Assembly: GCF_000374165.1 (NCBI RefSeq)
Contig: NZ_KB893735.1
Coordinates: forward strand, 558-58,534
DNA length: 57,977 nucleotides
Reading direction: 5' to 3'
From: Parafrankia elaeagni
GTDB taxonomy: Bacteria; Actinomycetota; Actinomycetes; Frankiales; Frankiaceae
Part shown: piece by piece, positions 22,461 to 54,150 of the stretch
Layout of the letters: the number at the start of each line of letters is the position of its first letter
Position numbering within the stretch: position 1 is the first letter of the stretch
The notes under the pieces: model-generated
What the model saw: only the letters and a program-made list of their open reading frames with translations
The model's database searches: none
What the model was told of the DNA's origin: nothing
Position numbers and translations under genes: made by a program

Positions 22461-23621
22461 ATGGTGAGCGGTGCGCCTGAGCTGATCGGTCGTTACGTCG
22501 TGGATCGGGAGCTCGGCTCCGGCGGCATGGGCGAAGTGTTCCTCGCCTACTCGCCGGCTGGTGATCCCGTGGCGGTGAAGCTGATCCGTAGTGATCGGTT
22601 GGACCCGGTCGCGCGCGACCGGTTCGAGAAGGAAGCACAGATCGCCAGGACGATCGTCGGGACGAACCGGGTGGCACGGTTTCTGGACGCCGATCCGTAC
22701 GCCGCCCGGCCCTGGATCGCGATGGAGTACATACCGGGCAGCACCCTGGCCGCCGAGGTCGATGCTCACGGGCCGCTGTCGGTGCCGCTCGTGGCGAGTC
22801 TGGCCGCGCTGCTCGCCGAAGGGCTGGAAGCTGTCCACACGGCCGGCCTGCTGCACCGGGACCTCAAACCGCAGAACGTCATCCTGGGTGAGTACGGCCC
22901 GGTGCTGATCGATTTTGGTCTCGGGGCCTTCCTGGACTCGGCGAAGGGCAGCCTCTCGCACACCGGCATGGTCATCGGCACGGTGCGTTCCATGCCTCCC
23001 GAGCAGGCCACAGGCAATCCCAAAGTCACTCCGGCCGCGGACGTCTACGGGCTGGGGGCGGTCCTGCTCTATGCGGCCACGGGACATAGTCCGTACGACG
23101 GCGTTCGGTGGGAGGCCATCGCCAGTCAGGTCGCCGACCCCAACCACCTTCCCGACCTTGGCGGCCTGCCGGCAGAGCTGGTGCCGTTGGTTTCGTCGAT
23201 GCTCGCCTACGAGCCTGAGGTCAGGCCTGCGCTGAGCGCTGTCATGACCCAGAGCACAGGACTGCTGACCGAGGCTGGTATCTCGCCGGTGGAGGCCCGC
23301 TATGCCCTGATCGATCGGACGAGGGAAGACCGGTCGGCAGCGCACGTACCGGCCGCGCGTAGAGATCTTCTGGTGCGTGTCGCAGAAAAAGTTGATCTCT
23401 CGGAGACGGATGCACGTCTGCGTAGTCCGCTTGACCACCCACCGCAGGAACGCGAACCGGAAACGAAGGCCCTGCCGGAGACAAGATCCGGTCGGGAACA
23501 GCCCGGAGACGTCGACTCTGGACCTGCTCCCCCTGGCGGAGACGGCGGGAAGAAGCTACCTGCGTCGCGGCGAGTGGCCGAGGAGCTGCGAGAGCAGTAC
23601 GCCATGCGGCTTGAGCTGTAG
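22461..23621 (+). CDS. PknB-type Ser/Thr protein kinase, cytosolic
   Basis: A 386-residue protein with a complete eukaryotic-like kinase domain at residues ~9-265: glycine loop LGSGGMGEV (18-26), ATP-binding Lys40 in VAVKLI, catalytic HRDLKPQN with Asp134, metal-binding DFG Asp151, and activation segment ending SMPPEQATG. The ~120-residue tail is charged and has no TM, unlike PknB sensor kinases, so it is cytosolic. It phosphorylates Ser/Thr on unknown substrates. It lies 38 bases before the SNF2 helicase gene on the same strand, with nothing else likely to be its target nearby, so it is the best candidate for the first gene of the defence locus. Kinases occur in several phage-defence systems; a role in triggering this one is inferred. 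Confidence 0.9.
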   Translation: MVSGAPELIGRYVVDRELGSGGMGEVFLAYSPAGDPVAVKLIRSDRLDPVARDRFEKEAQIARTIVGTNRVARFLDADPYAARPWIAMEYIPGSTLAAEVDAHGPLSVPLVASLAALLAEGLEAVHTAGLLHRDLKPQNVILGEYGPVLIDFGLGAFLDSAKGSLSHTGMVIGTVRSMPPEQATGNPKVTPAADVYGLGAVLLYAATGHSPYDGVRWEAIASQVADPNHLPDLGGLPAELVPLVSSMLAYEPEVRPALSAVMTQSTGLLTEAGISPVEARYALIDRTREDRSAAHVPAARRDLLVRVAEKVDLSETDARLRSPLDHPPQEREPETKALPETRSGREQPGDVDSGPAPPGGDGGKKLPASRRVAEELREQYAMRLEL

Positions 23622-23659
23622 TCGAGCTGTCGCTCGACATCTGCAGGCAGCACAGGAGA

Positions 23660-26600
23660 ATGGCAGGCTGCGTTCGAGACGAGGTGGGCGGGGGCTTGAC
23701 CAGAGTGACGGAGACGCGGGACAGCGAAGCGGGTCCCTGCGGCTTTGATACGGAGGATCACGCGGACACTCCGGGACGGGCGGGCAGGTTCGCACCAGGG
23801 GCTCAGGTCCGGGTCCGGGACGAGCAGTGGCTTGTCCGCAAGGTGAGCGTGACCCGGCACGACGGCTGGATGCTCGACGTCACCGGGGTCTCGCCGTTCG
23901 TCCGGGGGACCGACGCCGTCTTCTACGAGGAACTCGACGACATCGAGGTTCTCGACCCGCGGCGGACCCGGCTCGTCGTCGACGACTCCCCGAATCACCG
24001 CCGTGCTCGCCTCCACCTGGAGGCGACGATCCACAAGACGGCCCTGCCCCAGACCGAGTACGGGCTCGCGATCGCCGACACCTTCCTGATGGATCGGCAG
24101 GCCCATCAGCTGCGGCCCGCCGCGCTGGCACTGTCGATGCGCAACCCGCAGCCGCGGATCCTGATCGGCGACGTGGTCGGCCTGGGCAAGACCCTGGAGA
24201 TCGGCATTCTGCTCGCCGAGCTCATCCGCCGCGGGCGGGGTGAGCGGATCCTGGTCGTAACGCCGGCACACGTGCTGGAACAGTTTCAGCGCGAGCTGTG
24301 GACACGGTTCTCGATCCCGCTGGTCCGGCTGGACTCCACCGGGATCCAGCGGATGCAGCAGGAGATCCCCGCCGGCCGAAACCCCTTCGCCTACTTCAAG
24401 CGCGCCGTCATCTCCGTGGACACGCTCAAGAGCGACGTCTACGTGCATCACCTCGGTAGCACCGACTGGGACGCGGTCGTCATCGACGAGTGCCACAACC
24501 TGGTCAACCGCGGCACCAAGAACAACGACCTGGCCCGCCTGCTCGCTGACCGTACCGATGCGCTGATCCTCGCCTCGGCGACCCCGCACAACGGCAACGC
24601 CCATTCCTTCGCGGAGTTGATCAGACTTCTGGACGAGGCCGCGATCGCCGACCCGTCGAAGTACGAGGTGGCCGATCTGGAGCACCTCTACATCCGGCAG
24701 ACGAAGACGTCCCCGGAGGTGCGGGACTCGCTCAAGGGCTCCTGGCCGGACAGAGGACCGTCCCTGCCGATCCTGGCCGTGGCGACGGAACGGGAACGGG
24801 CGGTGCTGGAGGAACTCGCTACCCGCTGGATCCCCGGTGAGGTGAGCGCTCGATCCGCCAGTGACCATCAGCTCTTCCCCTACACGCTTTTCAAGTCGTT
24901 CCTGTCGTCCCACCGGGCGCTGCAGGAAACGATCGCGACGCGCCTGCGCACCCTGGAACAGCCGTCGACCACGGGCCGCACCTCGTCCCGGCAGGTTGAC
25001 CGTGAGGCATCCCGGCAGGCCGAACGCGCTGCTCTGCTCGACCTGCGAGGGCTGGCCGCCGACATCGACGACGGCGACTCGGCGAAGCTGACGGCACTGC
25101 TCGACGTGCTGCGGGAACTGTCGGTGGGCCCCCGCTCCGACACCCGAGTCGTGATCTTTTCCGAGCGGATCCCGACGCTCACCTGGCTGGCCCAGGTGGT
25201 GCCGGCCCGACTGGGTTTTCCCGCGACAGCGAAGAAGGACCAGAACAGGCCGTGGTCCGTCTACGGCGGGGCGGTGCAGGTGATGCACCGCGAGGCGACC
25301 AGCGACGACGATCAGCAGAAGATCGTCGAGAGGTTCGGGTTGCGCGACGACCCGGTGCGCCTGCTGTTCACCGGTGACGTGGCCTCCGAAGGGGTCAACC
25401 TACACCAGCAGTGCCACCAGCTCGTTCACTACGACCTGCCCTGGTCGCTGATCCGAATCGCACAGCGCAACGGTCGGATCGACCGCTACAACCAGCAGCA
25501 CCCGCCGGAGTTCCGGGCGCTGCTGCTCACCAGCGACGTCGTCTGGCGCACCGACGAGGAGACCGGAGAGCCCCTCCCGTTCGATGATCGTCTTGTCGGC
25601 GCCAAGCTGCTGCGGCGCGAGGAGCAGGCCCACCGGATCGAGGGCTCCGTCGAGGCTGCCACCGGTATCTACCGGGAGAAGGAGGAAGAGGACCGGCTCA
25701 CCCGGGATCTGATCGCCGGCCGCACCGTCGATCAGTCGATCGCCGCGTCGCGCCAGGACGCCCCCGACTTCATGGCCGGGCTGATGGGCAACGTCGGCGC
25801 CGACCCGGGAATCGCCCCGGTGTCCGTTGCCACCGTCCCGACCCTGTTCGCGTCCACCGCGGCGTACTTCGAGGAGGCCCTGCGCCAGATCTGCCCGACG
25901 AGCCCCGAGAACGACCTGGCCGTGCGCTGGGAGGACGACGGCACCATCGCCTTCGAACCACCCACCGACCTGCAGTACCGGCTGCGCGCACTGCCACGTT
26001 CCTACCTGAGCGAGCAGGGGATCATACCAGGCCGGACGGAACCCGGCCGGCTGCGGATCACCTTCTCCAAACCACTGGGCAAGAAGCGGCTCGCCGCTGC
26101 ATTGACGTCGTCGGCGACGCAGTGGCCCACCGTCAGCTACGTGTCGCCCATCCACCCGGTGCTCGACTGGGTGACGGACAAGGTCCTGGCTTCCCTCCGC
26201 TACGACGAGGCCTTCGTCCTCGCCTACCAGCCCGATCTCACCGAGGCCGGTAAACGCGACGGGTACCGGTCCGAGGACCTCGCCGGCCCGGCTTTCCTGG
26301 TCCAGGGCATCTACTCCAACGCCCTCGGCCGGCCGACCATCGTGGAGTGGATGGCCATCCTCGGCCTGCCTGGCGCCGGTCGGGTGGTTCCGATGAACGC
26401 CGACTTCCTGACGGTCTTCGGGGTCGGCCCGCAGATGCCCGGCCGCCGGGCCACCGCGCAGGAGCTGGACGATCTGCAGGGCCTCGTCCCGCAGGCGGTC
26501 AGGCACGCCCAGCGACACCTTGAGCTGCGCGCCGACGAGTACGCCGAACGTATCGACAGGGTCCTCGCCCCCTACCAGCGGCGCGTCCAGCGATGGTCGC

Positions 26601-26770
26601 AGGAGGCCCTGTTCGCCTCCACCGACCGGACGGAGACCGTACGCAGGCGGGAGGACCTCGTCGCCTCACTGCGTAGCTCCGGGGCACCGATGATGCGCCT
26701 GCTGGCGGTACTCACCCCCCAGAGCCCCGCCGCCGTCGCAACCGACGACACCACGGCGGTGGGGCGGTGA
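23660..26770 (+). CDS. drmD: SNF2-type helicase, DrmD-like (class 1 DISARM component)
   Basis: Up to 1036 residues; GTG 23705 is a good alternative start because the AGGAG next to ATG 23660 is too close. An N-terminal SH3-like module (APGAQVRVRDEQWLVRKVSV) precedes a RapA/SNF2 superfamily 2 helicase. Motifs are GDVVGLGKTLE (Lys ~177), VIDECHN (DECH, Asp ~276), LASATPHNG (motif III), LFTGDVASEGVNLHQQ (motif V) and IAQRNGRIDRYNQ (motif VI, Gln ~602). The length, domain order and the following giant methyltransferase match DrmD of class 1 DISARM, where the helicase cooperates with the methylase in restriction of phage DNA. The stop overlaps the methyltransferase start. Identification as DrmD is by architecture and context, so an alternative SNF2 restriction helicase is possible. 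Confidence 0.78.
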   Translation: MAGCVRDEVGGGLTRVTETRDSEAGPCGFDTEDHADTPGRAGRFAPGAQVRVRDEQWLVRKVSVTRHDGWMLDVTGVSPFVRGTDAVFYEELDDIEVLDPRRTRLVVDDSPNHRRARLHLEATIHKTALPQTEYGLAIADTFLMDRQAHQLRPAALALSMRNPQPRILIGDVVGLGKTLEIGILLAELIRRGRGERILVVTPAHVLEQFQRELWTRFSIPLVRLDSTGIQRMQQEIPAGRNPFAYFKRAVISVDTLKSDVYVHHLGSTDWDAVVIDECHNLVNRGTKNNDLARLLADRTDALILASATPHNGNAHSFAELIRLLDEAAIADPSKYEVADLEHLYIRQTKTSPEVRDSLKGSWPDRGPSLPILAVATERERAVLEELATRWIPGEVSARSASDHQLFPYTLFKSFLSSHRALQETIATRLRTLEQPSTTGRTSSRQVDREASRQAERAALLDLRGLAADIDDGDSAKLTALLDVLRELSVGPRSDTRVVIFSERIPTLTWLAQVVPARLGFPATAKKDQNRPWSVYGGAVQVMHREATSDDDQQKIVERFGLRDDPVRLLFTGDVASEGVNLHQQCHQLVHYDLPWSLIRIAQRNGRIDRYNQQHPPEFRALLLTSDVVWRTDEETGEPLPFDDRLVGAKLLRREEQAHRIEGSVEAATGIYREKEEEDRLTRDLIAGRTVDQSIAASRQDAPDFMAGLMGNVGADPGIAPVSVATVPTLFASTAAYFEEALRQICPTSPENDLAVRWEDDGTIAFEPPTDLQYRLRALPRSYLSEQGIIPGRTEPGRLRITFSKPLGKKRLAAALTSSATQWPTVSYVSPIHPVLDWVTDKVLASLRYDEAFVLAYQPDLTEAGKRDGYRSEDLAGPAFLVQGIYSNALGRPTIVEWMAILGLPGAGRVVPMNADFLTVFGVGPQMPGRRATAQELDDLQGLVPQAVRHAQRHLELRADEYAERIDRVLAPYQRRVQRWSQEALFASTDRTETVRRREDLVASLRSSGAPMMRLLAVLTPQSPAAVATDDTTAVGR

Positions 26771-29700
26771 GCCTCGACTTCGACTCGCTCACCAACCGCG
26801 GTGAGTACCTGGCCGCGCACTACTTCGCCGAGCAGCTCGACCAGGACCTCAAGAAGGGCTTCTTCGAATCCTGGACCCGCCGCGAAGGTGACGAGCACGA
26901 CCCGAGACGGACCCCGCGCCAGCTGCTTCGCGAGCTGCGGGGTGACTACCTGTCGGAATCGTTCCGCCGGTTCTTCGCCGCGGCCGCGCTGCAGGACGCC
27001 GAAGCAGTCGCTGCCGGCGACGAAATCGGCTCCCAGCTGCGCACCTACAGCAACCCACTGTGGACGGATCGGATCAGGTCCTGGCACCGGAAGGTCCTCG
27101 GAGCGCTCGGCTTCGCCCCCGGCCCGGACCGGGACCGCCTGACGGTGCACCGCGCCGGGCGTGAGCACGAGGTGAGCGTCGCCTGGCACGGGGACGGCAT
27201 CGTCGCACTGGACTGCGGATGGGCGGCAGCCCCCGACACCGCGCTGGATGCCGACGGCCCCGCACGGCTGCTGCACCCGCTGCGGGTCAGCGCGGGCGAG
27301 TTCTACCCGGCCGGCCCGGCGCTGGCCACCTGGCTGTTCCAGAGCAGGCTCGGCGGACCGGACGGCGCGTACCCACGGTTCGTGCTCCTGCTGTGCGGCG
27401 GCGTGCTCGTGCTCGCGGACCGCCGGTCCTGGGCCGAAGGCCGCTTCCTCGCGGCGAACCTCGACGTCGCCCTCGAACGCAACGACCAGCGCCAGCTCGG
27501 CGAACTGGCCCTCATCGCCGCCCTGTTCAGCCGGGAGATGCTGACCCGCGCCGAGGACGGCGAAGACCCGCCGATCGACCTGCTGCTGAAGGCTTCCACG
27601 GAAAACGCCGTCGGGGTCTCCTCCGAACTGCGTGCGGGCCTGCGCCGCTCTGTCGAGATCATCGCCAACGAGGTGCTGGCCCGCCTCGACGCTGCCGGGG
27701 TCGAACCCCGCCAGGTCGAGAACCCCCGCATCCCGTTCGCCCGCGAGCTCACCCGGGAGACGCTGCGCTACCTCTACCGGATCCTGTTCCTCCTCTACGC
27801 CGAGGCACGTCCCGAGCTGGGCATCCTGCCCGCCGACGACGGCAGCTACGAGGCCGGCTACTCGGTGGCCCGGCTGCGCGACCTCGTCGAGCGTGACGAG
27901 CAGCTGCCCGAGGAGGAGAGCCGCAACGGCTTCCATCTCTTCGCCTCCCTGGACCTGCTCTTCGACAAGGTCAACAACGGTCACCGCCGGTACGGGACGG
28001 AACCCGGCGACGATCTCCCCGGAGACGATGCCCAGACCCGGGCGCACAAGGCGAAGGAGCGCAGCGAGGACCGCGGTCTGCGGTTCGAACCACTGCGCAG
28101 CGAGCTGTTCGAACCGGCTGCCATCCGCCTGATCGGCCGTTCGCTGCCCGACCCCCGGTATGCCGAGGACGACCCGTCGCGGCGACTCGACCTGCGGCTG
28201 CGTAACGTCGCCCTGCACGAGGTGCTGCGGCTGCTGACCATGAAGAAGGCGTCCCGCCGGGGTGACCGCGGTGGCTTCATCTCCTACCGCAACCTCGGCA
28301 TCAACCAGCTCGGCGCCGTGTACGAGGGCCTGATGTCCTACACCGGCATCATCGCCACCGAGGAGCTGTGCGAGGTCGCCAAGGGCGGCGACCCGGAGAA
28401 GGGGTCGTGGCTGATCCCCGCGAAGCGGCAGACCGAGTACCCGCCGGAGACCCTCGTCCACTACGACGAGCACGACATGCGCCGAGGCCGGCGCGGGCCG
28501 AAGCGCTACCAGCCCGGCGAGTTCGTCTACCGCCTGTCCGGGCGGTACCGGGAGACGACCGCCTCCTACTACACTCCCGAATCCCTGACCAGGGGCACCG
28601 TCGAGCTGGCCCTCAAACACCGGCTTGACCAGGAACGCAGCGCCGACGACAAGGTGATCGAGACGCCTGCCGCGGAGCTGCTCCGGTACCGGATCTGCGA
28701 GCCGGCGCTCGGGTCAGGAGCATTCCTCAACGAGGCGATCAACCAGGTCGCCGAGGAGTACCTGCGGCGCCGCCAGAAGGAGCTCGGGGTCAGCATCCCG
28801 GCAGCCGACCTGCTGACCGAGAAGCAGAAGATCAAGGCTTACATAGCCCTGCACAACGCCTACGGCGTGGACCTGAACGAGACCGGCGTCGAGCTCGCCG
28901 AGGTCTCCCTGTGGCTCAACACGATGCACCCGGGTATGCAGGCGCCGTGGTTCGGGCTGCACCTGCGCCGCGGGAACTCCCTGATCGGTGCCCGCCGCGC
29001 CGTCTACGCCGAGGCCGACATCGACTCGGCGAAGAAGGAGTGGCTTCGGGCGAAGGACACCCTGACCCCGACAACGCTGCCGTTCCGGCACGGCGAGCAG
29101 CACCAGCCCCTGCCGAAGGGCGCCGTGCACCATTTCCTGCTGCCGACCCCGGGCTGGGCGGCGGTCACCGGATCGTCGGAGGCCAAGAAGCTCGCCAAAC
29201 CGGAGGTGGAGCGGCTCGCCGCCTGGCGGAAAGGCGTTCTGCGGCGCCCGGCGAAGAACCAGCCCGCCCGGCTCCGTGACGCCGCCCGGCGCGCCGAGTT
29301 CCTGTGGTCGCTGGTCATCCGGCGGATGGAGATCTCCGAGGACGCGATCGCCCGCCGCATCGACGTGTGGGGGGACGACCCGAAGGACCCCGCGTACAAG
29401 TTCCTGCGTCGGCCCGCGCACGCCGTTCCCAAGGAGAAGGTCTTCGAGGACCTCTTCAACGCCGTCGACACCCCGTACTGGCGACTGAAGACCATCATGG
29501 ACGCCTGGTGCGCCCTGTGGTTCTGGCCGGCGGCCCAGGCCGGGCAGCTGGACGGCACCGCCCCGGCCTACGCGGAACGTCCCACCGCGAGCAGCGCCGC
29601 CGATCTCTCCAACCTGCTCGGTGGAGCCCTTCTGGTCGACGAGGACCTTCTGAGGGCCGCACGACTGCTTCCCTCCGCACCGGACGACCGCTACACCGCG

Positions 29701-41317: not shown

Positions 41318-41396
41318 CGGGCCCCGGAATCCTTATCTGTGTGATGTATGGCCGGCCTTGCCGGCGGATTTTGTGAGGAAAGGGGTCGGGCTTCAG

Positions 41397-43484: not shown

Positions 43485-44449
43485 CCAGGGGGATACCTGC
43501 GCTGGCAATCGGCGACCTGTTGCTGCGGTGGGTGAGCGAGCTCGGGTCCGGACGGCTGCGCGACCTGCGCACTTCGGTGAGGAGCGTGGCACTCGGCCGC
43601 GGCATCGATTGCGCACCCGGCGCCGAATCCCGGTGGGTGCGGGATCTCGCTGCGCTCGGTTATCTTGACGTCGACTGGCATCGAGACTGGTGGTCGGTCG
43701 CGCCCTCCGTGCTGACCCGGCTGCCGCATTCGGACGGCCTAGCCGTCGTCGTCGGGCGGCGAACAGCCTCCTTCGACCGGGCCCTGATCGACGCGGAGTC
43801 GTGGGCAACCCTGATCCGGGTGGCCAATCCGGCCACGCCCGGCGACATTCCGGTACCGGACACCATTCTGCTGCGTTACGAAGACCCGGCCTGCCTTCCC
43901 GACGACGCCCGCTGGCTGGATTGTGCGTTCACGCCGTGTGCCGCGCTCCAGCTGGCAGAGCTGCTACCGGAGATTGAAGAAGGTCCCCTCGCGGCGCCGC
44001 CGGCACCGGATAACGCCTTCACAGTCCAGCGTTTCTCGCTCGCCGATGGCCGCTACGAACCCACAGCTCTCTATGCTGCTGACGGCCTCTATCGCTGGCG
44101 CGGCGCCGACTGGAGCCTACTCATCCAGGTTCGCCGCGGCGATGCCTGGCGGACGGTCGAGCACGAGGTCGGGGTGTACCTGGAGCTCGCAGGCCGGATC
44201 TCCGTACTGCGCTGGGCCGCGGAACCCGGAGCCGGTCGCTCGCTGACCGGCTCTCTGACCTGTGACCGCGCCGCGCCGTTGCCACCGCTGCACTCGCGGG
44301 CAGCCGTCCTCTGTAGCGGGCTGCGGCCGAGGGCCGATCGCACCGCGCGGACGGTTTCGTATGACAATGTGCCGCTGCAGGTCGCTGAACGGATCGCGAC
44401 GTCCTTGCGGCAGCGCCTCTCCGACATGTCGAGAAAGGATCATGGATGA
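43481..44449 (+). CDS. Unrecognised protein with N-terminal winged-helix-like region
   Basis: A 322-residue protein whose ATG overlaps the preceding stop; the open frame to 43430 is shadow. Residues ~20-70 (GSGRLRDLRTSVRSVALGRGI, AESRWVRDLAALGYLDVDWHRDWWSVAP) read as a winged-helix fold with a beta-hairpin wing, plausibly for nucleic-acid or protein contact. The rest is alpha+beta with a long C-terminal helix pair (LQVAERIATSLRQRLSDM). I cannot assign a family. It is followed at once (ATGA) by the second DUF1998 helicase, so it is probably a subunit or specificity factor of that helicase. No catalytic motif is visible. Confidence 0.55.
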   Translation: MTRGIPALAIGDLLLRWVSELGSGRLRDLRTSVRSVALGRGIDCAPGAESRWVRDLAALGYLDVDWHRDWWSVAPSVLTRLPHSDGLAVVVGRRTASFDRALIDAESWATLIRVANPATPGDIPVPDTILLRYEDPACLPDDARWLDCAFTPCAALQLAELLPEIEEGPLAAPPAPDNAFTVQRFSLADGRYEPTALYAADGLYRWRGADWSLLIQVRRGDAWRTVEHEVGVYLELAGRISVLRWAAEPGAGRSLTGSLTCDRAAPLPPLHSRAAVLCSGLRPRADRTARTVSYDNVPLQVAERIATSLRQRLSDMSRKDHG

Positions 44450-47400
44450 CCGGCCAGGAGCAGCGGCCAGGCGGCGCACCGGCACGGGACGTGGTCGGTT
44501 CTTTCAACGCCCTGCGCGAGACCTATCTGCGGTACTACGAGACGCCGTTCGCCCTGGACGACGCATCGGTCACTGCCGAACGGCGGTCGTTGCTCGACGA
44601 GGACGGTGGCGCCTGGCGTGAACCGCTCCTGGAGCTGCGCCCGCAGTACGCCTTGTACGACCACCCTCTCCCGGAGTCGTTCAGGGTCGCTGGAGCCCAT
44701 CCCGAGGCGGCGGACTTCGCGCGCTTTGCACTGCCTGACGACGTGGACACCCTGTATCGGCACCAGCACGACGCGCTGGTCGCCGCCTGCCGGGATGGGC
44801 GCGACGTCGTTGTCACGGCGGGCACCGGCTCCGGCAAGACCGAGACGTTCCTGCTTCCCGTCCTCGCGGACCTCGTTGCGGAGTCAGCGAGCTGGGGTGG
44901 GCGCGGCGCACGGCAGTCGGCCTGGTGGGCTAGCGGACCTGATTCCGCCTACAGGCCGAGCCGACAGGGCGAGACCGGTCATCGGCCGGCAATGCGTGCG
45001 CTCATTCTGTACCCAACGAACGCGCTCGCCGACGATCAGCTCGTACGGCTACGGCAAGCGCTCGACAGCGATCCGGCCCGCGACTGGCTGGACCGCCACC
45101 GGGCCGGCCACCGCTTCTATTTCGGCCGGTACACCGGCGCGACCCCCGTCCCGGGCCAGCCCACGTCAAAGCCGGCCACGGACCGACTACGTGGCTACCT
45201 GAGCGAGCTCGCGGACCGCCAAGACCGTCTTCGTGAGGCGCATGCCTTCATCGCGCGGGTCGGTGGTGCGGAGATGCACGCCCGCTGGGACATGCAGCAC
45301 GCCGCGCCAGACGTCCTGGTCACCAACTATTCGATGCTCAACATCATGCTCCTGCGTCGGCAGGAGGCCGAGATCTTCGAGTCGACCCGGCGCTGGCTTG
45401 CCACCACCCCGGGCGCACGGTTCACCCTGATCCTCGACGAGTTGCACATGTACCGTGGCACGGCGGGGACCGAGGTCGCCTACCTGCTGCGCAAGCTGCG
45501 TCACCGGCTGGGCCTCGACGAGGCGCCGGAGAAGCTACGGGTACTGGCCGCCTCCGCCTCGTTGAAGGCCGGGCGTGACGACGACTTCGTCGAGGCCTTC
45601 TTCGCACTGCCCCGCGGGCGGCACCTGGTCGTGCCTGGTGATCTTGTCCTGCCGAGTCCACTGCCGGATGCCGGACAGGAAGACGCCGACCTGTCGGCCC
45701 ATGTGGCGAGCCTCGAGGCGGCGGTGGATGGGGAGCTCGATCCGTCGGAAGCCTTCGCGCTGCTCGCCGGCACCGCCGCGGCGGACGCGCTCGCACGGAC
45801 ATTGGCACCGGCCGGAGAGCCGACGGCCATCGCGTTGACGAGCGCGGCGGATCGGCTGTTTCCTGGTGTGACAGACGCCGGTCGTCGGGCGGTTGCGCTC
45901 CACGGGCTGCTGCGTGCCCTCGGCATCGCGCATGCTTCGGGCCTACCCAAGATCCGGGCGCACATGTTCTTCCGGAACATCGACGGCTTCTGGGCCTGCT
46001 CGGATCCCGACTGCCCTGATGTGCCCGTCGAGCATTCGCCACGCCGACGGGTGGGCCGGCTGTTTCGCCAGCCGACGCCGCGGTGCAGTTGCGGGGCGCG
46101 GGTTCTCGAGATGCTGTTCTGCCAGAACTGCGGAGACTTGTTCCTGGGCGGTTTCGCCGTACCCGCGAAGCTGGGGAAGAAGCTGTTCCGCGACTTTCTG
46201 CACACTGACTTCCCCGACTTCGACCAGCTGCCCGACGAGGGGTCCGCGACACCGAACGCTGGCAACTACGTTGTCTACTGGCCTCGACCTGAGGCCGTGA
46301 CCAGGCTCGACACCACCGAGTGGACAGGATCGCTGGCGAACAAAGGCGCGACTGTCCACTTCCAGTTCCGGCGGAGCAGCTATCAGCCCGCGACAGGGCG
46401 TCTCGCCAACGTCGAGCAGGACTTCACCGGCTGGTCCTTCCATGCGGTCCCCCTCCATTCGAAGGATGGCCGGCCAGTCGCAGCGCTGCAGGACCTCCAT
46501 GCCTTTCCGACCCGTTGCCCCGCCTGCGCGGCAGACTGGGAGACCCGTCGCAAGCGCAACGTGCGCACAGGGTCGTTCGAACCGATCGGCATCGATGATC
46601 CGGCCCGGCTGCGGACCGCGCCGATCCGTCGGATGCGCACCGGCTTTGAGAAGATCAACCAGGTGATCACGACAGAGGCGCTTGGTCATCTTCCCGCGGA
46701 CCAACGCAAGATCATCGCTTTTTCGGACAGCCGCGACGACGCCTCCGAACTCGCGAGCGGTCTCGCTCTGCGCCACTACCAAGACCTCCTTCGCCTCCGA
46801 GCAAACGAGACCGTCGTCGCACAGGGCGACCCCTACGGAGACCTGCAGCTGGTCAAGGCCCACTACCGCGGAGATCCGGTGGACCGTGACCAGGTTCGTG
46901 CGGCCCTGCGGCGGCTGACCGAACGGCACCCCCACGAGGTCACGATGCTCAAGGCGATCCTTACCAACGACATCGATGCCGAACCCGATCGGCTGCCCCA
47001 GATCGAGGACGTACTCGGTCGGCTGCCGTCTTTGACGGATCTGCGGTTCGACCTGCGTGGACTACTGCTCGGCGCCGACGGCCCAGCGACCAACCCAGGC
47101 GGCCCAGCCGCGTCCCTGCAAGAACGGGATGGGGCGCGCTGGACCGCGTTGTTCGATTGGCAACAGGACCGGCGGCCGCGCGTCGGGCTCACGCAGCCGC
47201 AGAGGGAGTTCCTCGACCAGCTCGACGATCGGCTCGGTGAGGAGCTCATCGAAGGGCTTTTCGGCGCCACCGGCCGTGATTTCGAATCGCTGGGGCTCGG
47301 CTGGCTATGCCTGACGGGCGACCGGCAGCCTCTCGACCTTCCTGCGGACACGGACACGGCGATCGCACGCGCGAGTCTGCGGGTCCTTGGGCAGATGCGC

Positions 47401-49986
47401 CGCTTCACGGGGCAGCGAGCCGGTGCGGAGAAGCCGCCGGGCGCGCTGGGCCGGTACTGGAGGCAGGTCGCGCGAAGCCTTGATACCGATGCCGAGTCCA
47501 TCCAGACCCGGGTCCTCGGCATCTGGGGGGCGGTCGTCGTCCAGTACTGTGTCGATCCCGCCCAGGTAGCGCTGCGTCCCGGGGATGGTCGGGCCTGGGT
47601 CTGCCCGACGTGCCGACGGCCCCACCTACATCGTGGCGGTGGAGCGTGCACGCGCTGCCTGTCGCTCCTGCCCGACGAGGCCCGGCCGTTCGGCAGCACG
47701 GACGACGACTACTACGCCTGGAAGGCGCGGACCCGCACCGGTGACTTCCCGCTGCGCGCAGCCGAGCTCACCGGACAGACCGACCGAATCGACGCCCAGT
47801 CCCGGCAGGCTCGCTTCCAGGACGTCTTCCTCGGCGAGCAGGATGTGGACGTCGCTGACGGCATTGAGGTGCTGTCGGTGACGACGACCATGGAGGCCGG
47901 CGTTGACGTCGGCGCCCTGAACACCGTGATGCTCGCGAACATGCCGCCCACCCGGTTCAACTACCAGCAACGAGTGGGTCGGGCCGGCAGGCGCGCCAGC
48001 CCGACCGCGAGCGCCATCACCGTCTGCCGGGGCCGTAGCCATGATGAGCATTACTTCGCGCATCCCGATGAGATTACGAACGCGCCGACCCCACCGCCCT
48101 ACCTTGCGCTGAACATGCCCTCGATCTTCAAGCGGATCCTGCTTGGCGAGGTACTGCGGCAGGCGTTCGACGCGCTCGCCGCCCGATCTGCAGGCTCGGA
48201 CGACGAGCCGGACCTCACCCGAAACGTGCACGGAGAGTTCGGCCTGGCCGCCGAGTGGACCACGCACCGCGGCTTCGTGCGCCGCTGGGTCGACAGCCAC
48301 GGAGACAACATCGCGTCCGCGGCGCAGGCGCTGCTGGCCGGCACGCCCGAGCCGGTCGCCTCGATCAATCCGGACAGCTGCGTCCGGCAGCTGCTCGCAG
48401 ATATCGACGCCGAGGCCGCGACAGCAACAGGTCACGTCGACCTCAGCCAGCGGCTCGCCGAACGAGGCCTGCTGCCAATGTTCGGCTTCCCGACCCGTGT
48501 CCGGCTCCTCTACACGAAGCGCCCCACGAACAGCTTCCCGTGGCCGCCGGCGGGTGCAATCGACCGAGGGCTCGCGGTGGCGCTCAGCAAGTTTGCTCCC
48601 GGCACTGAGACCCTCCGCGACGGTCGCTGGTATCGGTCGGAAGGCATCGCGTCGTTCGCGCCGGGTGGTTTCCGGCCGAAGGCGGTCGACGAGCCGCTCG
48701 GCGTCGAGACCAAGGTCGCGATGTGCCGACTGTGCGCGCATATCCAGGTCCTGGACGATGCGCCCAAGCCGGAGACCTGCCCGGCCTGCGGCGCCTCCGA
48801 GCGGTACTACACGGCGTTTCCTGTCCGTGAGCCGCTCGGCTTCCGCGCCGATGCGCCTCGCGACTATGACGGCATCCGCGACGGGATCGGCGGCGCGACA
48901 AGCTCACGTACGGCGACCGACCTCGAACGGGACGCGCCCCGCGTAGCGCGGGCCGTCGACGACTGGCTCGTCGCGCACTGCGGCAGCGGCGACCGGTACA
49001 CTGTCAACCCGAACAGTGGCCGGCTGTTCCGATTTCGGCGCGACACGACGACCAACTGGGGCGGCTATGTGGTCGTCCGCGACCCATCTGCGCCTGCGGA
49101 CGTGGAGACGGCGCTGGGGGCGGTCGAACATACTGACATGATGTTCGTCGGTGCCCGCGCCGCGCTCGATCCCGAGCGTGGCCTCCGGTTCGACATGGCC
49201 CCCTATCAGCAGCTCGACGGCTTCCCGGAAAGTCATCATGGGCGTCGTGCAGCCTGGTACTCGCTGTCAGCGCTGTTGCGCCGCGCGGCCGCCCCATACC
49301 TTGACGTGCAGCCGGACGAGCTGAGCGCCGGCATCCACGGCTCGGCCTCGGCGCCCTCGCCGGTCTTCGCCTACCTGGCCGACACCTTGGAGAATGGCGC
49401 CGGATTCAGCACGCGTCTGGGTTCCGCCGACCACATCGACGACTTCCTCCGGGCCGTCGACCGATATGTCGCCGAACTCCGAGCGGACCACGCCGACACC
49501 TGCCGCGGTTCCTGCTACCGGTGTCTGCGGGACTACTCGAACATGCGGCTGCACCCGTTGTTCGACTGGAGGCTCGCCGCCGACCTCATCGGAAGCCTCC
49601 GGGGCGAAACGCCCGAGACTGACCTCGAGGTGCACGCTCGGCTGCTGGACAAGTGGGCGCAGGACCGGTCCGCCCTGCACATCGCGCTGCGGGACACACC
49701 GCATGGGCCGATCGCGGTCGCCGACGGCGACCTGTCGGAAGAGCCTGTCGTCATCGTCGTGAAGCACCCGCTCGAATCCGGCGGCGCGCTTACCGGATCG
49801 GCGTCCACCTCGGGGCTGGCCGGCTGGAATGGCCCCGTTCCGCTGACACCGCGGTTGGAGAAGCTGCGCGACTACGTCCGCACCACAGGGCTGGCCACGC
49901 GAGTCGCGTTCGTCGACGCGTTCAGGCTCGACCGGACGCCCGGCGCGGTCACGAGCGCGTTGGTCGAGTTCGCGGAGGACGAGTGA
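44446..49986 (+). CDS. Second DUF1998 helicase (DEAD/DEAH type), 1846 residues
   Basis: Superfamily 2 helicase motifs: TAGTGSGKTETFLL (Lys131), LILDELHMYRG (DELH, Asp331), SASLKAG in place of SAT, IIAFSDSRDDASELA at the start of the second RecA domain, TTTMEAGVDVGALN (motif V) and NYQQRVGRAGRRASP (motif VI, Gln ~1175). Cys clusters at ~517-566 (CSDPDCPD, CSCGARVLEMLFCQNCG) and CPACAADW fit zinc-binding inserts. CRLCAHIQ/CPACGASERYY and CRGSCYRCLRDYSNMRLHPL (from 1686) form the DUF1998 end. It is clearly a paralogous type to the 2264-residue helicase but lacks the C-terminal nuclease-like part and diverges in zinc spacing. Helicases of this kind (DruE, DpdJ, MrfA-related) process DNA in defence or repair. 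It is flanked by the unrecognised proteins and the Hsp70 triad. Confidence 0.82.
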   Translation: MTGQEQRPGGAPARDVVGSFNALRETYLRYYETPFALDDASVTAERRSLLDEDGGAWREPLLELRPQYALYDHPLPESFRVAGAHPEAADFARFALPDDVDTLYRHQHDALVAACRDGRDVVVTAGTGSGKTETFLLPVLADLVAESASWGGRGARQSAWWASGPDSAYRPSRQGETGHRPAMRALILYPTNALADDQLVRLRQALDSDPARDWLDRHRAGHRFYFGRYTGATPVPGQPTSKPATDRLRGYLSELADRQDRLREAHAFIARVGGAEMHARWDMQHAAPDVLVTNYSMLNIMLLRRQEAEIFESTRRWLATTPGARFTLILDELHMYRGTAGTEVAYLLRKLRHRLGLDEAPEKLRVLAASASLKAGRDDDFVEAFFALPRGRHLVVPGDLVLPSPLPDAGQEDADLSAHVASLEAAVDGELDPSEAFALLAGTAAADALARTLAPAGEPTAIALTSAADRLFPGVTDAGRRAVALHGLLRALGIAHASGLPKIRAHMFFRNIDGFWACSDPDCPDVPVEHSPRRRVGRLFRQPTPRCSCGARVLEMLFCQNCGDLFLGGFAVPAKLGKKLFRDFLHTDFPDFDQLPDEGSATPNAGNYVVYWPRPEAVTRLDTTEWTGSLANKGATVHFQFRRSSYQPATGRLANVEQDFTGWSFHAVPLHSKDGRPVAALQDLHAFPTRCPACAADWETRRKRNVRTGSFEPIGIDDPARLRTAPIRRMRTGFEKINQVITTEALGHLPADQRKIIAFSDSRDDASELASGLALRHYQDLLRLRANETVVAQGDPYGDLQLVKAHYRGDPVDRDQVRAALRRLTERHPHEVTMLKAILTNDIDAEPDRLPQIEDVLGRLPSLTDLRFDLRGLLLGADGPATNPGGPAASLQERDGARWTALFDWQQDRRPRVGLTQPQREFLDQLDDRLGEELIEGLFGATGRDFESLGLGWLCLTGDRQPLDLPADTDTAIARASLRVLGQMRRFTGQRAGAEKPPGALGRYWRQVARSLDTDAESIQTRVLGIWGAVVVQYCVDPAQVALRPGDGRAWVCPTCRRPHLHRGGGACTRCLSLLPDEARPFGSTDDDYYAWKARTRTGDFPLRAAELTGQTDRIDAQSRQARFQDVFLGEQDVDVADGIEVLSVTTTMEAGVDVGALNTVMLANMPPTRFNYQQRVGRAGRRASPTASAITVCRGRSHDEHYFAHPDEITNAPTPPPYLALNMPSIFKRILLGEVLRQAFDALAARSAGSDDEPDLTRNVHGEFGLAAEWTTHRGFVRRWVDSHGDNIASAAQALLAGTPEPVASINPDSCVRQLLADIDAEAATATGHVDLSQRLAERGLLPMFGFPTRVRLLYTKRPTNSFPWPPAGAIDRGLAVALSKFAPGTETLRDGRWYRSEGIASFAPGGFRPKAVDEPLGVETKVAMCRLCAHIQVLDDAPKPETCPACGASERYYTAFPVREPLGFRADAPRDYDGIRDGIGGATSSRTATDLERDAPRVARAVDDWLVAHCGSGDRYTVNPNSGRLFRFRRDTTTNWGGYVVVRDPSAPADVETALGAVEHTDMMFVGARAALDPERGLRFDMAPYQQLDGFPESHHGRRAAWYSLSALLRRAAAPYLDVQPDELSAGIHGSASAPSPVFAYLADTLENGAGFSTRLGSADHIDDFLRAVDRYVAELRADHADTCRGSCYRCLRDYSNMRLHPLFDWRLAADLIGSLRGETPETDLEVHARLLDKWAQDRSALHIALRDTPHGPIAVADGDLSEEPVVIVVKHPLESGGALTGSASTSGLAGWNGPVPLTPRLEKLRDYVRTTGLATRVAFVDAFRLDRTPGAVTSALVEFAEDE

Positions 49987-51698
49987 CCACCGGGCCTCTC
50001 GACTTTCACACAGAGCCAGCGCACGTGTCGAGCTCCCGCGAGGAGGCAATCCAACGCGAGCTACAACGTCGCCGTGCCCTCCAGGCGGGACGCAACCACC
50101 CACAGCCGCCTGCAGTACCTGCCGGCTTCACGTCACGGGCGGTCTGGGAGGCGGCATCGCATGCGGCGGACGCGCTGGCCGCCGCTGTCAGAGACGCGGA
50201 GTATCCCGCCGACGCGCTGGTTCATAGGCGCGCCGATGTTCCCGCCCACGAGTTGGCGCGCCTCGCCGTCGACGCAGCCAGTCCATTGCCACCGGTCACC
50301 GCGGTGCGACTCCTTCTAGACGCATTCCCCTCGATCCCCGGTCTGTTCCCGGAACTGGAGGCCTCGCGAGCAACCGAGCTCGTTGGAAGCGGGATCCCCA
50401 CCCTGGGGGACGACTCGGTACGTGACGACTTCTCCGACGGTGCCGTCCCCGGTTTGCGCGCGGCTGACACCGCCTGGCAATGTCATGTCAGCTACGAGCG
50501 GCTCCGCCGTCATCTACCGATCAGTCCAGCCGAGCAGCGCGCGCTCGCCACCTACCTCCCGGAACCGCTTGTCGACGATCTCATCGAGGCCCGGCGGCTC
50601 GGAGTCAAAGCAGTTCCGATGTACGGAACTCGCGCGCTCTATCTGCTGGCACGGCTCCGACCAGGCGACGTCGCGGACGACGATCTGACGGAACTCGGAT
50701 GGACCGACGAGCGGGCACGCCGTGACTTCTGGTACCGGGTCAGAAATGGCGACGTCACCGTTCTCGACCACCGACGTGGACTGGATCCCGAGCAGCTCAG
50801 CCTGCTTGACGACCTGGACCGGGTGAAGGCGACCCGCCGGGTCCCGTCCACTCTGACGAGTCAAACCTGGCTCTGGCGGATGCTTGAGCATCTGACACAG
50901 GGCCAAGCTCAGAGCCAGGCCGGCCAGGACCACGGATTTGGCTCCTGGATTAGCGTGCGGCGGCTGCTGCGTGTGCTCCGGGTCGCGCACCAGCAGGAAA
51001 TTCGTGGCAACACCATGAACGCGGTCAAGCTCTTCGAACAGGTACGTGCGCAGGCGGTGCAGAACATCGGCGTGCTATCGCCCGCTGGTTGGGAGGCCCG
51101 CAACATCGCCGCCTACCTGCTTGTGCGCAAGGACCGGAGCGGGCGATACGTCAAGGACGCGCTCGCGGAGATCAGCCCGGGACTCGACAGTCGACATCTA
51201 CCGGAAGATAAATTGCCGTCATCGACCCGCCGAAACTTGGACCACAATCGAGCGGTGCTGCGCACGCTCAACTCCGGTCTGGAGTCCGGGCATGTGCTCA
51301 ATCCCTTCCTGGTCCTCGGCGTGCCGGACCAGGCACCCACGGATGTCTGGCGAAGTGCCTGGCTCACACTGCGTCGTGATCTTGACGAAGACGGTGAAGC
51401 GTTGGCCAACGAGGCCAAGGACGCCGTTCAGGCCATGGAGCGCGGTCACGCAGCGCCTGGACCGTTCCTCGTCCCGCTGAACCAGCAGCGCTGGCAGGAA
51501 CCGTCGGCCGGCGCGATGCCCGCCCTCGGCGCGGCTCAGCCCATGCCACGCCGGAACCCGCCTGCGACCGCCGAGCAGAAAGCGTACGCCATGGATCAAG
51601 CCGCCAAAGGCCTCATCAACGCGGCCCGCCACCACACGGGGTTGCCGGTCCTCACTGGCATCAACGACGACCCAACGTCAGAGGGTGGCAATCAGTGA
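49983..51698 (+). CDS. Protein with a degenerate C-terminal J-like domain
   Basis: A 571-residue protein; GTG 49983 overlaps the helicase stop, and the open frame upstream to 49653 is shadow. The N-terminal ~430 residues are alpha-helical and unrecognised, with a HTH-like SYERLRRHLPISPAEQ and ISVRRLLRVLRVAHQQEIRG. Residues ~440-487 (NPFLVLGVPDQAPTDVWRS, AWLTLRRDLDED, then EALANEAKDAVQAM) follow the helix I-II-III pattern of DnaJ J-domains: NP-x-x-x-LGV, then AW-x-x-LRR, but the HPD that stimulates Hsp70 is replaced by LDED. With GrpE-like and Hsp70-like genes directly downstream, a J-like Hsp70 partner that binds without standard activation is my reading. This is inference from short motifs. 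The tail (PATAEQKAYAMDQAAKGLI) is disordered or helical. Confidence 0.55.
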   Translation: MTTGPLDFHTEPAHVSSSREEAIQRELQRRRALQAGRNHPQPPAVPAGFTSRAVWEAASHAADALAAAVRDAEYPADALVHRRADVPAHELARLAVDAASPLPPVTAVRLLLDAFPSIPGLFPELEASRATELVGSGIPTLGDDSVRDDFSDGAVPGLRAADTAWQCHVSYERLRRHLPISPAEQRALATYLPEPLVDDLIEARRLGVKAVPMYGTRALYLLARLRPGDVADDDLTELGWTDERARRDFWYRVRNGDVTVLDHRRGLDPEQLSLLDDLDRVKATRRVPSTLTSQTWLWRMLEHLTQGQAQSQAGQDHGFGSWISVRRLLRVLRVAHQQEIRGNTMNAVKLFEQVRAQAVQNIGVLSPAGWEARNIAAYLLVRKDRSGRYVKDALAEISPGLDSRHLPEDKLPSSTRRNLDHNRAVLRTLNSGLESGHVLNPFLVLGVPDQAPTDVWRSAWLTLRRDLDEDGEALANEAKDAVQAMERGHAAPGPFLVPLNQQRWQEPSAGAMPALGAAQPMPRRNPPATAEQKAYAMDQAAKGLINAARHHTGLPVLTGINDDPTSEGGNQ

Positions 51699-52465
51699 AC
51701 GGCGCATCCAAGGGAAATGCCCGGAACATGCCCAAGCAGGTGCGGCCGACCAAGGGGAAGCCGAAGTCCCCGGACAAGGGGCGCCCGGAGAACCATAAGA
51801 AGCGAGAACCGCAGATAGTCATCCGCTTCGGTGCCGGCCACCCTCGGTTCGAACCCGGAACCTTCGATGCCCGCGCGCTCCTCACCTCCGTACTAGCTGC
51901 GGTGGAGCCCCGGCTGGACGAAGGCCTGCGTGTGCTCACCGATGCCGCGCTTGAAGCGGGGGCGGACCGTGAAGATCTGGCGCGACTCGTCCAGACCGCG
52001 AGTCGTCAGATCGCCGACGCGGTGCGGTCCGGCGTGATCGACGGTATGCGGGTGCGAGACCGCCACCTGGCTCAGATGGTCGTCATCGACCGTGCCGCAG
52101 CGCACGCGGAAAACTTGACCAGACTCCAAACCCGTATCGAGCACGAGCTCGAGCGTGCCGGCCTGCGCCGGGTTTCGGACCCGGCGGACATAGCGCCGTT
52201 CAACCTCGTTGAAACCGCCACAGGCTCTTCTGCGGTGTCCAAGTCTGGACAAGAGTACGAAATCATCAGCCCCGCATATGTCGACACCGAGACTGGAAAG
52301 ACAGTCGAGCGAGGCTGGATCCGCCAGGTGCCCGAGGAAGCAGCACCCCCAGGTGGCAAGCAGCACGGCCGCTCCTCCCGCCCGCACCAGGCACCCCGTC
52401 GGGCGGGTGCCGACGAGCAGACGACTGCTGACGAAGCGGCAACGACAGGGCGGGAGACTCCGTGA
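51695..52465 (+). CDS. Candidate GrpE-like nucleotide exchange factor
   Basis: A 256-residue protein overlapping both neighbours by four bases. A basic, disordered N-terminus (MPKQVRPTKGKPKSPDKGRP) precedes long helices, one of them HLAQMVVIDRAAAHAENLTRL then LQTRIEHELERAGLRRV (about residues 125-165). A short beta domain follows (FNLVETATGSS, GQEYEIISPAYVDTETGKT, VERGWIRQVPEE), as in GrpE where a long coiled-coil dimerisation helix is followed by a beta-rich head ending in V-x-RPA-x-V. The C-terminal ~40 residues are low-complexity. Next to an Hsp70-like ATPase and a J-like protein, a GrpE-type exchange function is the natural reading, but no diagnostic residue proves it. Alternative: an unrelated coiled-coil adaptor. 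Confidence 0.45.
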   Translation: MNGASKGNARNMPKQVRPTKGKPKSPDKGRPENHKKREPQIVIRFGAGHPRFEPGTFDARALLTSVLAAVEPRLDEGLRVLTDAALEAGADREDLARLVQTASRQIADAVRSGVIDGMRVRDRHLAQMVVIDRAAAHAENLTRLQTRIEHELERAGLRRVSDPADIAPFNLVETATGSSAVSKSGQEYEIISPAYVDTETGKTVERGWIRQVPEEAAPPGGKQHGRSSRPHQAPRRAGADEQTTADEAATTGRETP

Positions 52466-54150
52466 CCTTCGGCATCGATTTTGGGACGAGTAACTCGGTC
52501 CTCGCCCGCTCCAACGGCCGGGACGTTGAGATCGTGCCGGTCGACAGCGGGCAGGTCCCCGCGCAGTGGCGTCAGCCTGAGTTCGAAGATCTGTTTCCCT
52601 CGGTGCTCGGGGTACGCCCGCTCCAGCGCACGCTGTGCTTCGGCTGGGCCGCGAAGACCGTCGGCAGCGAGCCGGTCGACGCTGTGAAGCGCATGCTGGG
52701 GACGAGAGCAGCGGGCAGCCAGCAGGTCGACGACGGAACGCCACAGCTGGAGGAGCACAACATCTGGCTCGGCGGTGAGCCGTTCCGCAGCACCGTTGCG
52801 GCAGCGTCGCTCTTCGCAGAGATGAAGCTGGCAGCGGACCGCAGCTTCCTCGATCTCGACCAGGCGGTCGTGACCGTGCCGGCGAACGCCACCGGCGGTG
52901 CCCGGTACCGCACCCGGGCCGCCGCCAGGCTGGCAGGGATCAAGGTCAAGGCGCTGCTGAACGAACCGACCGCTGCTGCCGTCTCCTACGTTCACGACAT
53001 TGCCGTCGAGGGCCGCCTGCTCATCTTTGACTGGGGTGGGGGCACTATCGACGTCACGGTCCTCGAGTACGACGGCAAGTTCTTCGAGGAACGGTCCTCA
53101 CGTGGCATCGCGGCCCTGGGCGGACTGGAGTTCGACGAAGCACTGGCACGGATCCTCATCACGAAGCTCGGACAGACCCCGGAGAATCTGTCGAAGGCGG
53201 AACGTGCGCGCTGGCGGCGTGAGGTCGAACTTACGAAGATCGCGCTTTCGCGGCCGGACGTCAGCGAGCTGCCCTTCGACCTGCCGGCACGCGGAGTCAG
53301 CCTGACGGTGGCACGCGCCGAGTACGTCGACGCCGTCATGCCGTTGATTACAAAGGCGATGGAGCCGCTGTACCAGTGCCTGGAAGACACCGGCATCGGT
53401 CCCGACAAGATCGATGCTGTCCTGATGATCGGCGGCACATCGCAGATCCCCGAGGCACGCGAGGCAGTGGGGAAGGTCCTCTCACCGGAGAGCATCGTCT
53501 CCGCAGAGTTGTGCCATCCGATGACGGCAGTGGCGCGAGGCGCGGCTATCTATGGGGCCGCACTCGACGATCCCGACCAGCATGGCCAGTTCGCTCTCGT
53601 GACAAGCTATGATCTTGGCACCGCCTTCGATGCTGGCCCTCGGAAGGGCTTCAAACCCGTCATCGGGCGCAACCGCACGCTGATCGCGCTCGGAGAGAAG
53701 CGTTTCGTGCCAAACCGGCCCTACGCGCATGCGCTCAACATCGAGATCGTCGAGGGCGAGGCGGGTTTCCCGGCAGACAGCGACCGTGCCTTCCCGTTGA
53801 GCAACCTGCAGGTAATGCTGCCCAGGCGGGAGGCCGATCCGGAAGCCAACGCGGTTATCGTGAAGTTCCGATACGACCACAGCGGGATCCTCAAGGTCAC
53901 AGTCGTCCACGAGAAGAGCGGCCGGGAACTGCTCTCGGACGAACTCGACTCTTTCGGCGAGGACGGCACCCCCCTGCGAACCGGCCTACGCGAAGAGCTG
54001 ATTCGGCTCCTCGGACACACGGACGTTCCTTTTTCCGAGGCTGGATCGGACGAGCCAGCGTTCGAGGTCAAGGTGCGCGTCTCAGGCGAAGTCACGCCTG
54101 CGTTGGACCCCGACCTCACTGTGAATGGTATCCCTCAACCGCGACTTTGA
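52462..54150 (+). CDS. Hsp70-like chaperone ATPase
   Basis: A 562-residue DnaK-family protein starting at a GTG that overlaps the previous stop. The actin-fold nucleotide-binding domain has phosphate-1 FGIDFGTSNSVL (from residue 3), the AGIKVKALLNEPTAAAVSY segment, phosphate-2 FDWGGGTIDVTVLE (Asp190; usual DLGGGTFD) and the adenosine motif MIGGTSQIPEAR (Gly324). Residues ~390-560 form a short beta-sandwich substrate-binding domain; the helical lid is much reduced compared with the ~610-640-residue DnaK, and the usual C-terminal EEVD-type tail is absent. It would bind and release partner proteins with ATP. Being the last gene of a block of helicase and accessory genes rather than next to a normal dnaK operon suggests a dedicated, substrate-specific chaperone. 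Confidence 0.85.
   Translation: MTFGIDFGTSNSVLARSNGRDVEIVPVDSGQVPAQWRQPEFEDLFPSVLGVRPLQRTLCFGWAAKTVGSEPVDAVKRMLGTRAAGSQQVDDGTPQLEEHNIWLGGEPFRSTVAAASLFAEMKLAADRSFLDLDQAVVTVPANATGGARYRTRAAARLAGIKVKALLNEPTAAAVSYVHDIAVEGRLLIFDWGGGTIDVTVLEYDGKFFEERSSRGIAALGGLEFDEALARILITKLGQTPENLSKAERARWRREVELTKIALSRPDVSELPFDLPARGVSLTVARAEYVDAVMPLITKAMEPLYQCLEDTGIGPDKIDAVLMIGGTSQIPEAREAVGKVLSPESIVSAELCHPMTAVARGAAIYGAALDDPDQHGQFALVTSYDLGTAFDAGPRKGFKPVIGRNRTLIALGEKRFVPNRPYAHALNIEIVEGEAGFPADSDRAFPLSNLQVMLPRREADPEANAVIVKFRYDHSGILKVTVVHEKSGRELLSDELDSFGEDGTPLRTGLREELIRLLGHTDVPFSEAGSDEPAFEVKVRVSGEVTPALDPDLTVNGIPQPRL

Follow-up and report, generated by a model that had tools for sequence, protein, structure and literature searches.

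Here, we report that a 57,977-nucleotide stretch of the Parafrankia elaeagni draft genome (NCBI RefSeq assembly GCF_000374165.1, contig NZ_KB893735.1, positions 558 to 58,534; hereafter, the window) probably carries two separate antiphage systems stacked head to tail. In window coordinates, block A (22461-41317) comprises a Ser/Thr kinase gene and four predicted ARMADA type II genes, and block B (41397-54150) comprises a predicted Druantia type IV core followed by genes for a J-like protein, a GrpE-like protein, and an Hsp70 (hereafter, the trio). From gene content and comparison with relatives, we put the probability of this reading, in which the trio is an integral part of the second system, at about 0.72. 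The window spans nearly all of its contig (58.5 kb), and the draft genome totals 7.6 Mb. Genomes (G) and loci (L) used for comparison are cited by our working numbers.

All eleven genes of 22461-54150 lie on the + strand. With the starts proposed here for ArmC (32178), DruF (41397), and DruL (43481), 8 of the 10 gene junctions are 4-base ATGA or GTGA overlaps, and the other two junctions are gaps, of 38 bases behind the kinase gene and of 79 bases at 41318-41396. Gene content, shared strand, and predominant 4-base overlaps are as a first-pass annotation, made from the bare sequence, had described them. The predicted features are as follows.

22461..23621, + strand: Ser/Thr protein kinase, 386 amino acids (Pfam Pkinase, 118 bits; VAVK, HRDLKPQN, and DFG present)
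23660..26770, + strand: ArmA, SNF2/RapA-like helicase, 1036 amino acids (SNF2-rel_dom and Helicase_C; GLGKT and DECH)
26767..32181, + strand: ArmB, giant Eco57I/PglX-type DNA methyltransferase, 1804 amino acids (Eco57I, 38.5 bits; PADLOC type IIG model, 875.6 bits)
32178..38972, + strand: ArmC, YprA-family helicase with an MrfA Zn-binding domain and a putatively Vsr-like C-terminal region (DEAD, Helicase_C, and MZB; GSGKT and DEFH)
38969..41317, + strand: ArmD, UvrD helicase with a putatively RelE/ParE-like N terminus, 782 amino acids (UvrD-helicase, 89.6 bits at residues 283-558; GajB models match)
41318..41396, no strand: boundary between the systems, with a terminator-like hairpin at 41351-41365 (6 G-C pairs, then GGATTTTGTG; pattern scan)
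41397..43484, + strand: DruF4, likely start GTG at 41397 in a frame open from 41358 (PADLOC DruF4, 344.6 bits)
43481..44449, + strand: DruL4, ATG at 43481 overlapping the DruF stop, frame open from 43430 (PADLOC DruL4, 309.7 bits)
44446..49986, + strand: DruE4, YprA-family helicase, 1846 amino acids (PADLOC DruE4, 2103 bits over residues 14-1842)
49983..51698, + strand: J-like co-chaperone, 571 amino acids, helical solenoid carrying a J-like hairpin at about residues 440-486, no HPD (profile and predicted model)
51695..52465, + strand: GrpE-like protein, 256 amino acids, long helices followed by a beta domain
52462..54150, + strand: Hsp70, 562 amino acids (Pfam HSP70, 183 bits, profile positions 2-490 of 599)

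Separate histories of the two blocks

Blocks A and B have separate histories and are two systems that are often neighbors. ArmC is 97% identical between two genomes recorded as Streptomyces, G395 and G397 (over 1,271 residues of G397), whose DruE proteins are 64% identical; among G397, G398, and G405, DruE is 91 to 93% identical and ArmC 37 to 45%. Between the window and G132, identity is 90% for DruE and 92% for Hsp70 vs 64% for ArmC. In G132 (L014-L015), block B is complete and the adjacent ARMADA system is truncated: ArmB is present only from residue 1041 onward, and neither the kinase nor ArmA was found in the 19 kb fetched upstream. The blocks also occur apart, ArmC being detected at E ≤ 1e-40 in 7 and not in 10 of the 17 trio genomes searched (of 18). 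Where they are neighbors, ARMADA lies upstream of block B and co-directional with it (G132, G395, and G397), downstream and co-directional at a distance of 2.3 kb (G405), or divergent from the trio-bearing Druantia at 7.6 kb (G398) or 6.1 kb (G133). In G407, where the contig ends with only a kinase gene in view, it is possibly divergent, and in G401 and G409 it seems to lie on separate contigs. Among the ArmC relatives seen, the closest (71% identity) are on three Streptomyces plasmids, and plasmid records searched with the G397 J-like protein gave no match.

Because of the discordant divergences, the separate occurrence, and the three relative arrangements, we treat the blocks as two systems. 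The first-pass annotation had left a choice between a single very large system and a stacked pair divided at the gap; it had named independent occurrence of the blocks in most genomes, together with no effect of either on phage infection or transformation, as grounds against a single one. Independent occurrence is what the genomes covered here display, and of the two options we keep the stacked pair. That blocks A and B form a single operon, functional only jointly, is very improbable. In its favor are their co-directionality across a gap of 79 bases, the recurrence of ARMADA upstream in G132, G395, and G397, and a reported synergy of ARMADA II with Druantia III in Escherichia coli (PMC12458937); against it stand the divergences, the 10 trio genomes without detected ArmC, the divergent (6 to 8 kb apart) and downstream placements, and the plasmid-borne ArmC relatives set beside a J-like protein that matched no plasmid record.

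Inheritance of the trio with DruE

The trio has a single origin and is co-inherited with DruE in the loci seen. A DruE-alignment scan with one genome per species yielded 307 relatives, and the best 80 of these were examined. The trio follows DruE in 18 of these 80 loci, exactly those in which DruE is at least 59% identical to that of the window, and in none of the other 62 (DruE at most 48% identical; at least 5 kb of downstream sequence in 46 and at least 1.2 kb in 54), some of which have no recognizable DruF and DruL. Nor was it seen with four plasmid-borne DruE relatives, within the stretches fetched. The 18 loci, the window, G132, G133, and G348 make up the 22 trio loci discussed below. 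On a quick IQ-TREE tree of 88 DruE proteins, the 22 trio rows fall on one side of a single branch (support, 100), and the trio distribution takes 1 change vs 19.8 on shuffled labels.

The genes are also tightly joined. In all 22 loci of the clade that were seen, the J-like gene directly follows DruE, and at every one of the 19 loci measured the start of the former and the end of the latter overlap by 1 or 4 bases; across 18 loci, the three trio junctions are 1- or 4-base overlaps, except at two J-like/GrpE-like junctions, one with a 6-base gap and the other with an 11-base overlap. Pairwise identities track those of DruE (17 loci, 136 pairs; the 18th locus has no DruF in the available stretch), with r values of 0.995 for the J-like protein, 0.994 for Hsp70, 0.992 for DruF, and 0.867 for the GrpE-like protein. 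In a class sample of 394 genomes, the J-like protein was matched (E ≤ 0.001) in 7, namely, the window's own genome, G132, G133, and G348 (with block B), G283, and, marginally, G128 and G268, in which the other trio genes were not found in the stretches fetched.

Druantia core and chaperone proteins

By its PADLOC matches, block B is a Druantia type IV system (DruF-DruL-DruE) to which the trio genes are added. The 2021 definition of type IV, drawn from 168 instances, comprises DruE, DruF, and a DruL of unknown function (PMC8565338), and all three are present in block B; the difference lies in three additional genes overlapping the 3' end, which are outside the type IV definition as that paper words it. 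DruM and DruG models were not among the PADLOC matches for the eleven genes (the best 25 for the kinase, ArmA, ArmC, and ArmD), and the trio proteins matched no PADLOC model. DruE would be the DNA translocase of block B, and we assign no role to DruF and DruL. In the related Druantia III, described as late acting, DruH is the likely sensor and DruE a helicase-nuclease working on replication intermediates that contain single-stranded DNA (PMC13192584). Type IV as defined lacks DruH, and the trio could fill the sensor role in it.

Hsp70 action is generally taken to require that the HPD motif of a J protein act on a conserved arginine-linker site. For DnaK, the HPD aspartate is held to break the contacts of R167 with linker residue D393 and with D481, thereby promoting ATP hydrolysis (PMC7289447). 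Of the marks of a canonical DnaK-DnaJ-GrpE set, the 22 trio loci keep the Hsp70 ATP-binding motifs DFGTSNS and DWGGGTID (22/22); HPD is absent from every J-like protein (0/22), the R167 equivalent is replaced in every Hsp70 (0/22; alanine in 21 and serine in 1), and the VLLLD linker is absent throughout (0/22). Both host Hsp70s encoded beside grpE keep the linker, and the arginine is kept in the sole stretch that covers it. This loss on both sides of the HPD/arginine-linker contact suggests that the trio Hsp70 works without the classical J stroke.

The window's J-like protein reaches a profile-profile score of 33.7 with the host DnaJ (shuffle maximum, 20.0), and its structure model has a predicted local distance difference test (pLDDT) score of 83. 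The GrpE-like protein has the long-helix and beta-domain fold of the GrpE family. For Hsp70, the Pfam match leaves the lid region of the family profile uncovered, and no extra effector domain was found.

A related trio is present in G283 (L022:761-5090, G283:C9), where DruF, DruL, and DruE were not found in the 31 kb fetched around it. Its J-like protein also lacks HPD, and its Hsp70 lacks the linker and has serine, preceded by aspartate, in place of the arginine; the C terminus of this Hsp70 carries a Zc3h12a-like NYN RNase domain (32.7 bits vs a cut-off of 23). A gene for an AIPR protein lies near the G283 trio on the opposite strand.

Proposed mechanism and alternatives

We propose that block B represents a subtype of Druantia type IV equipped with chaperones and presumed to act in defense. 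The J-like, GrpE-like, and Hsp70 proteins would form a dedicated Hsp70 module, putatively as a complex, whose client would most likely be the Druantia complex (DruF/L/E) itself, a choice made because of the co-inheritance of the two. Given that HPD is absent from the J-like protein and the arginine-linker contact from the Hsp70, the module would presumably not run the usual J-driven peptide-trapping cycle. Instead, Hsp70 would act as a slow ATP/ADP switch, with the J-like solenoid as its tether and the GrpE-like protein resetting it. The switch would keep the Druantia machine assembled yet inactive and release it upon infection, both the off-state and the trigger being conjectural. This hold-and-release switch is offered tentatively, at somewhat below even odds. 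More speculative is a wider proposal, possible but doubtful in our view, that a Druantia subtype captured a complete Hsp70 machine whose HPD and arginine-linker site were lost together, giving an HPD-independent nucleotide switch that would license a DNA-attacking helicase complex on infection, and that the same rewired trio, with an RNase-fused Hsp70, would be a separate defense module.

Other roles for the trio are conceivable. An infection sensor, in which the Hsp70/J-like pair recognizes phage proteins (e.g., coat or replication proteins) and signals to DruE, would recall bNACHT25, whose phage sensing needs host DnaJ (PMC12169576), and would suit the variability of the J-like protein (31 to 41% identical to that of the window in the 14 relatives aligned, vs 58 to 68% for Hsp70); the lost HPD/arginine circuit argues against ordinary peptide trapping, however, and we regard this role as unlikely. 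The G283 trio, with its RNase-bearing Hsp70 and no Druantia genes in 31 kb, would rather suggest a separate conflict module with its own effector activity that hitchhikes behind Druantia IV, as would the HSP70, GrpE, and DnaJ-fusion genes of GTPase-centered conflict systems (PMC7159879). A hitchhiker is hard to reconcile with one origin on the DruE tree without visible reassortment, with the 1- or 4-base overlap of the J-like gene and DruE at every locus measured, and with the lack of a detected effector domain in the window's Hsp70, and it seems improbable. We think equally little of an ordinary spare chaperone set that aids the folding of DruE: the protein is very large, and the GrpE-like protein and Hsp70 come from chaperone families, but the 62 other DruE loci, mostly with DruE matches of about 5.0 to 5.7 kb, do without the trio, and the canonical co-chaperone circuitry is lost in all 22 loci that have it.

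Several points weigh against two systems with an integral, rewired trio. Since the G283 trio has no DruF, DruL, or DruE within 31 kb, the trio is not always part of Druantia. Its distribution rests on the best 80 of 307 DruE relatives, and the identity correlations rest on related sequences, so relatedness inflates r, although no exchange is visible. In all 22 trio Hsp70s, lysine or arginine stands one residue before the lost arginine, and this basic residue may compensate for the loss; the D481 equivalent is serine in the trio Hsp70s, which means little because the host Hsp70s have asparagine there. ARMADA genes (ArmA, ArmB, or ArmC) lie in the flanks (up to 10 kb) of 3/18 trio loci vs 1/62 other DruE loci (Fisher P = 0.034), a comparison with other DruE loci rather than with actinomycetes at large; ARMADA is thus commoner near trio-type Druantia, and some functional link between the blocks is possible.

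ARMADA type II in block A

Judged by gene content and order, block A joins a Ser/Thr kinase gene to the four-gene set of ARMADA type II, which is related to DISARM. ARMADA type II was defined in a September 2025 preprint (Bell et al. 2025, PMC12458937), according to which one E. coli cluster protected directly and non-abortively against 13 of 80 phages, all four genes were required, and changes in the Walker A or NPPW motifs abolished activity. Block A has the same four genes in identical order: an SNF2/BrxHII-like helicase, a PglX-like methylase, a YprA-family helicase with a DUF1998-type part, and a UvrD helicase, whose N terminus is RelE-like in the preprint and possibly so in block A; its relatives share this order. 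The motifs essential in E. coli are present as Walker A in ArmA, ArmC, and ArmD (GLGKT, GSGKT, and GTGKT) and as NPPW at residue 1121 of ArmB, which also has GSG at 649. As in the E. coli system that was tested, the ArmB methylase and the ArmA, ArmC, and ArmD helicases would act jointly against incoming phage, and the cell would not be killed.

Block A differs from the tested four-gene E. coli system in the kinase gene before ArmA; the word kinase is absent from the main text of the preprint. Among the 11 actinomycete ARMADA loci that show the ArmA start and the upstream gene, 9 have a kinase gene at this position (the window, G395, G398, G405, G133, both loci of G401, and plasmids L122 and L123), and none was seen in L124 and L057; the calls for L122 to L124 rest on record annotation. 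The kinase probably gates the ARMADA system of block A.

The ArmC frame is open from 32145, and its likely start is GTG 32178, with a GTGA overlap. Its C terminus, the place of a Vsr-type nuclease in ARMADA type II, has, by eye, a conserved stretch of the type D-x-F...LDG/LEGxxxH...D..KR..L, with no profile match. The N-terminal 280 residues of ArmD are conserved across five aligned sequences and RelE/ParE-like by eye, and their profile weakly matched a toxin-like chain in PDB (E = 0.076). On the Tsukamurella plasmid L124 (1-24194), a UvrD/helicase/DUF1998 cassette lies immediately before an ARMADA system in which the annotation splits ArmC into two genes. ArmD-like UvrD proteins (L062:2438-4126 and L103:15315-17486) adjoin trio-less DruE loci whose flanks lack other ARMADA genes.

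DISARM class 1 was considered and rejected for block A. The SNF2 helicase and giant methylase, which the first-pass annotation had taken for the class 1 DISARM pair, are indeed common to both, as is a YprA-family helicase; the gene set and order are nonetheless those of ARMADA type II. The DISARM DrmD model scores 244 bits on ArmA, far below its cut-off of 610; DISARM has separate DrmA and DrmB genes, whereas the helicase and Zn-binding parts form one fused gene in block A (32178-38972); and the PLD domain of the DrmC nuclease was not found among the eleven genes by Pfam (E ≤ 0.001). The matches of PADLOC and NCBIfam PLD-helicase models to ArmA fall within its helicase part.

Boundary and neighboring genes

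The hairpin at 41351-41365 is weak evidence of a terminator, because the pattern scan gave 8 such sites in 20 kb vs 5.9 expected and the gap (41318-41396) folds no better than shuffled sequence (z = -0.83). Adjoining both systems, 55149-57671 on the - strand encodes a TIR-weak AAA-TPR protein (TIR_2, 58.5 bits), likely another defense gene. Secretion- or conjugation-like genes (T2SSE ATPase, T2SSF, and a TraG/TraD-type coupling protein) occupy 6792-22157 upstream, possibly a mobile element carrying defense genes. At the contig end, 529-3557 holds a gene for a Pretoxin-HINT domain protein and a Mutator-family transposase fragment.

Relation to other chaperone-bearing systems

The CoCoNuT paper (PMC11090510) describes Hsp70-like proteins (CnuD) in McrBC-type systems and treats Druantia II/"Type IV CoCoNuT". 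Those systems resemble block B in placing an Hsp70-like protein within a large restriction-type superoperon, and degenerate Hsp70 features are reported there too; in CnuD, however, it is the Walker-A-like motifs that are degenerate, whereas the Hsp70 of block B keeps its ATP-binding motifs and loses the J/arginine/linker circuit. The terms GrpE and DnaJ have 0 occurrences in the main text of that paper, and McrB GTPase was not found among the eleven genes. The GAP1-N2 GTPase conflict systems share with block B a trio of HSP70, GrpE, and J-type (DnaJ-fused) genes in actinobacterial conflict loci, as described in PMC7159879; the block B trio follows a YprA helicase, and GTPase, tubulin, and vWA genes were not found among the eleven genes, a distinction drawn from the published description.

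We found no chaperone-bearing Druantia in the literature; most subscription papers were outside our reach, so a description elsewhere is possible. Among accessible papers, only the CoCoNuT paper (in two versions) brings together Druantia, Hsp70, and chaperone, and only the defining paper (PMC8565338) was found to name Druantia type IV, with no antiphage test found. The trio on Druantia IV is an unusual three-part heat-shock chaperone set of which we found no earlier description.

With both sides of the HPD/arginine-linker contact lost and the set fixed to one defense system, the trio is a natural test of alternative Hsp70 operation. For Druantia type IV, it provides a subtype that offers a clear way in for experiments, and the reassortment of blocks A and B shows repeated stacking, without merging, of two related YprA-helicase systems.

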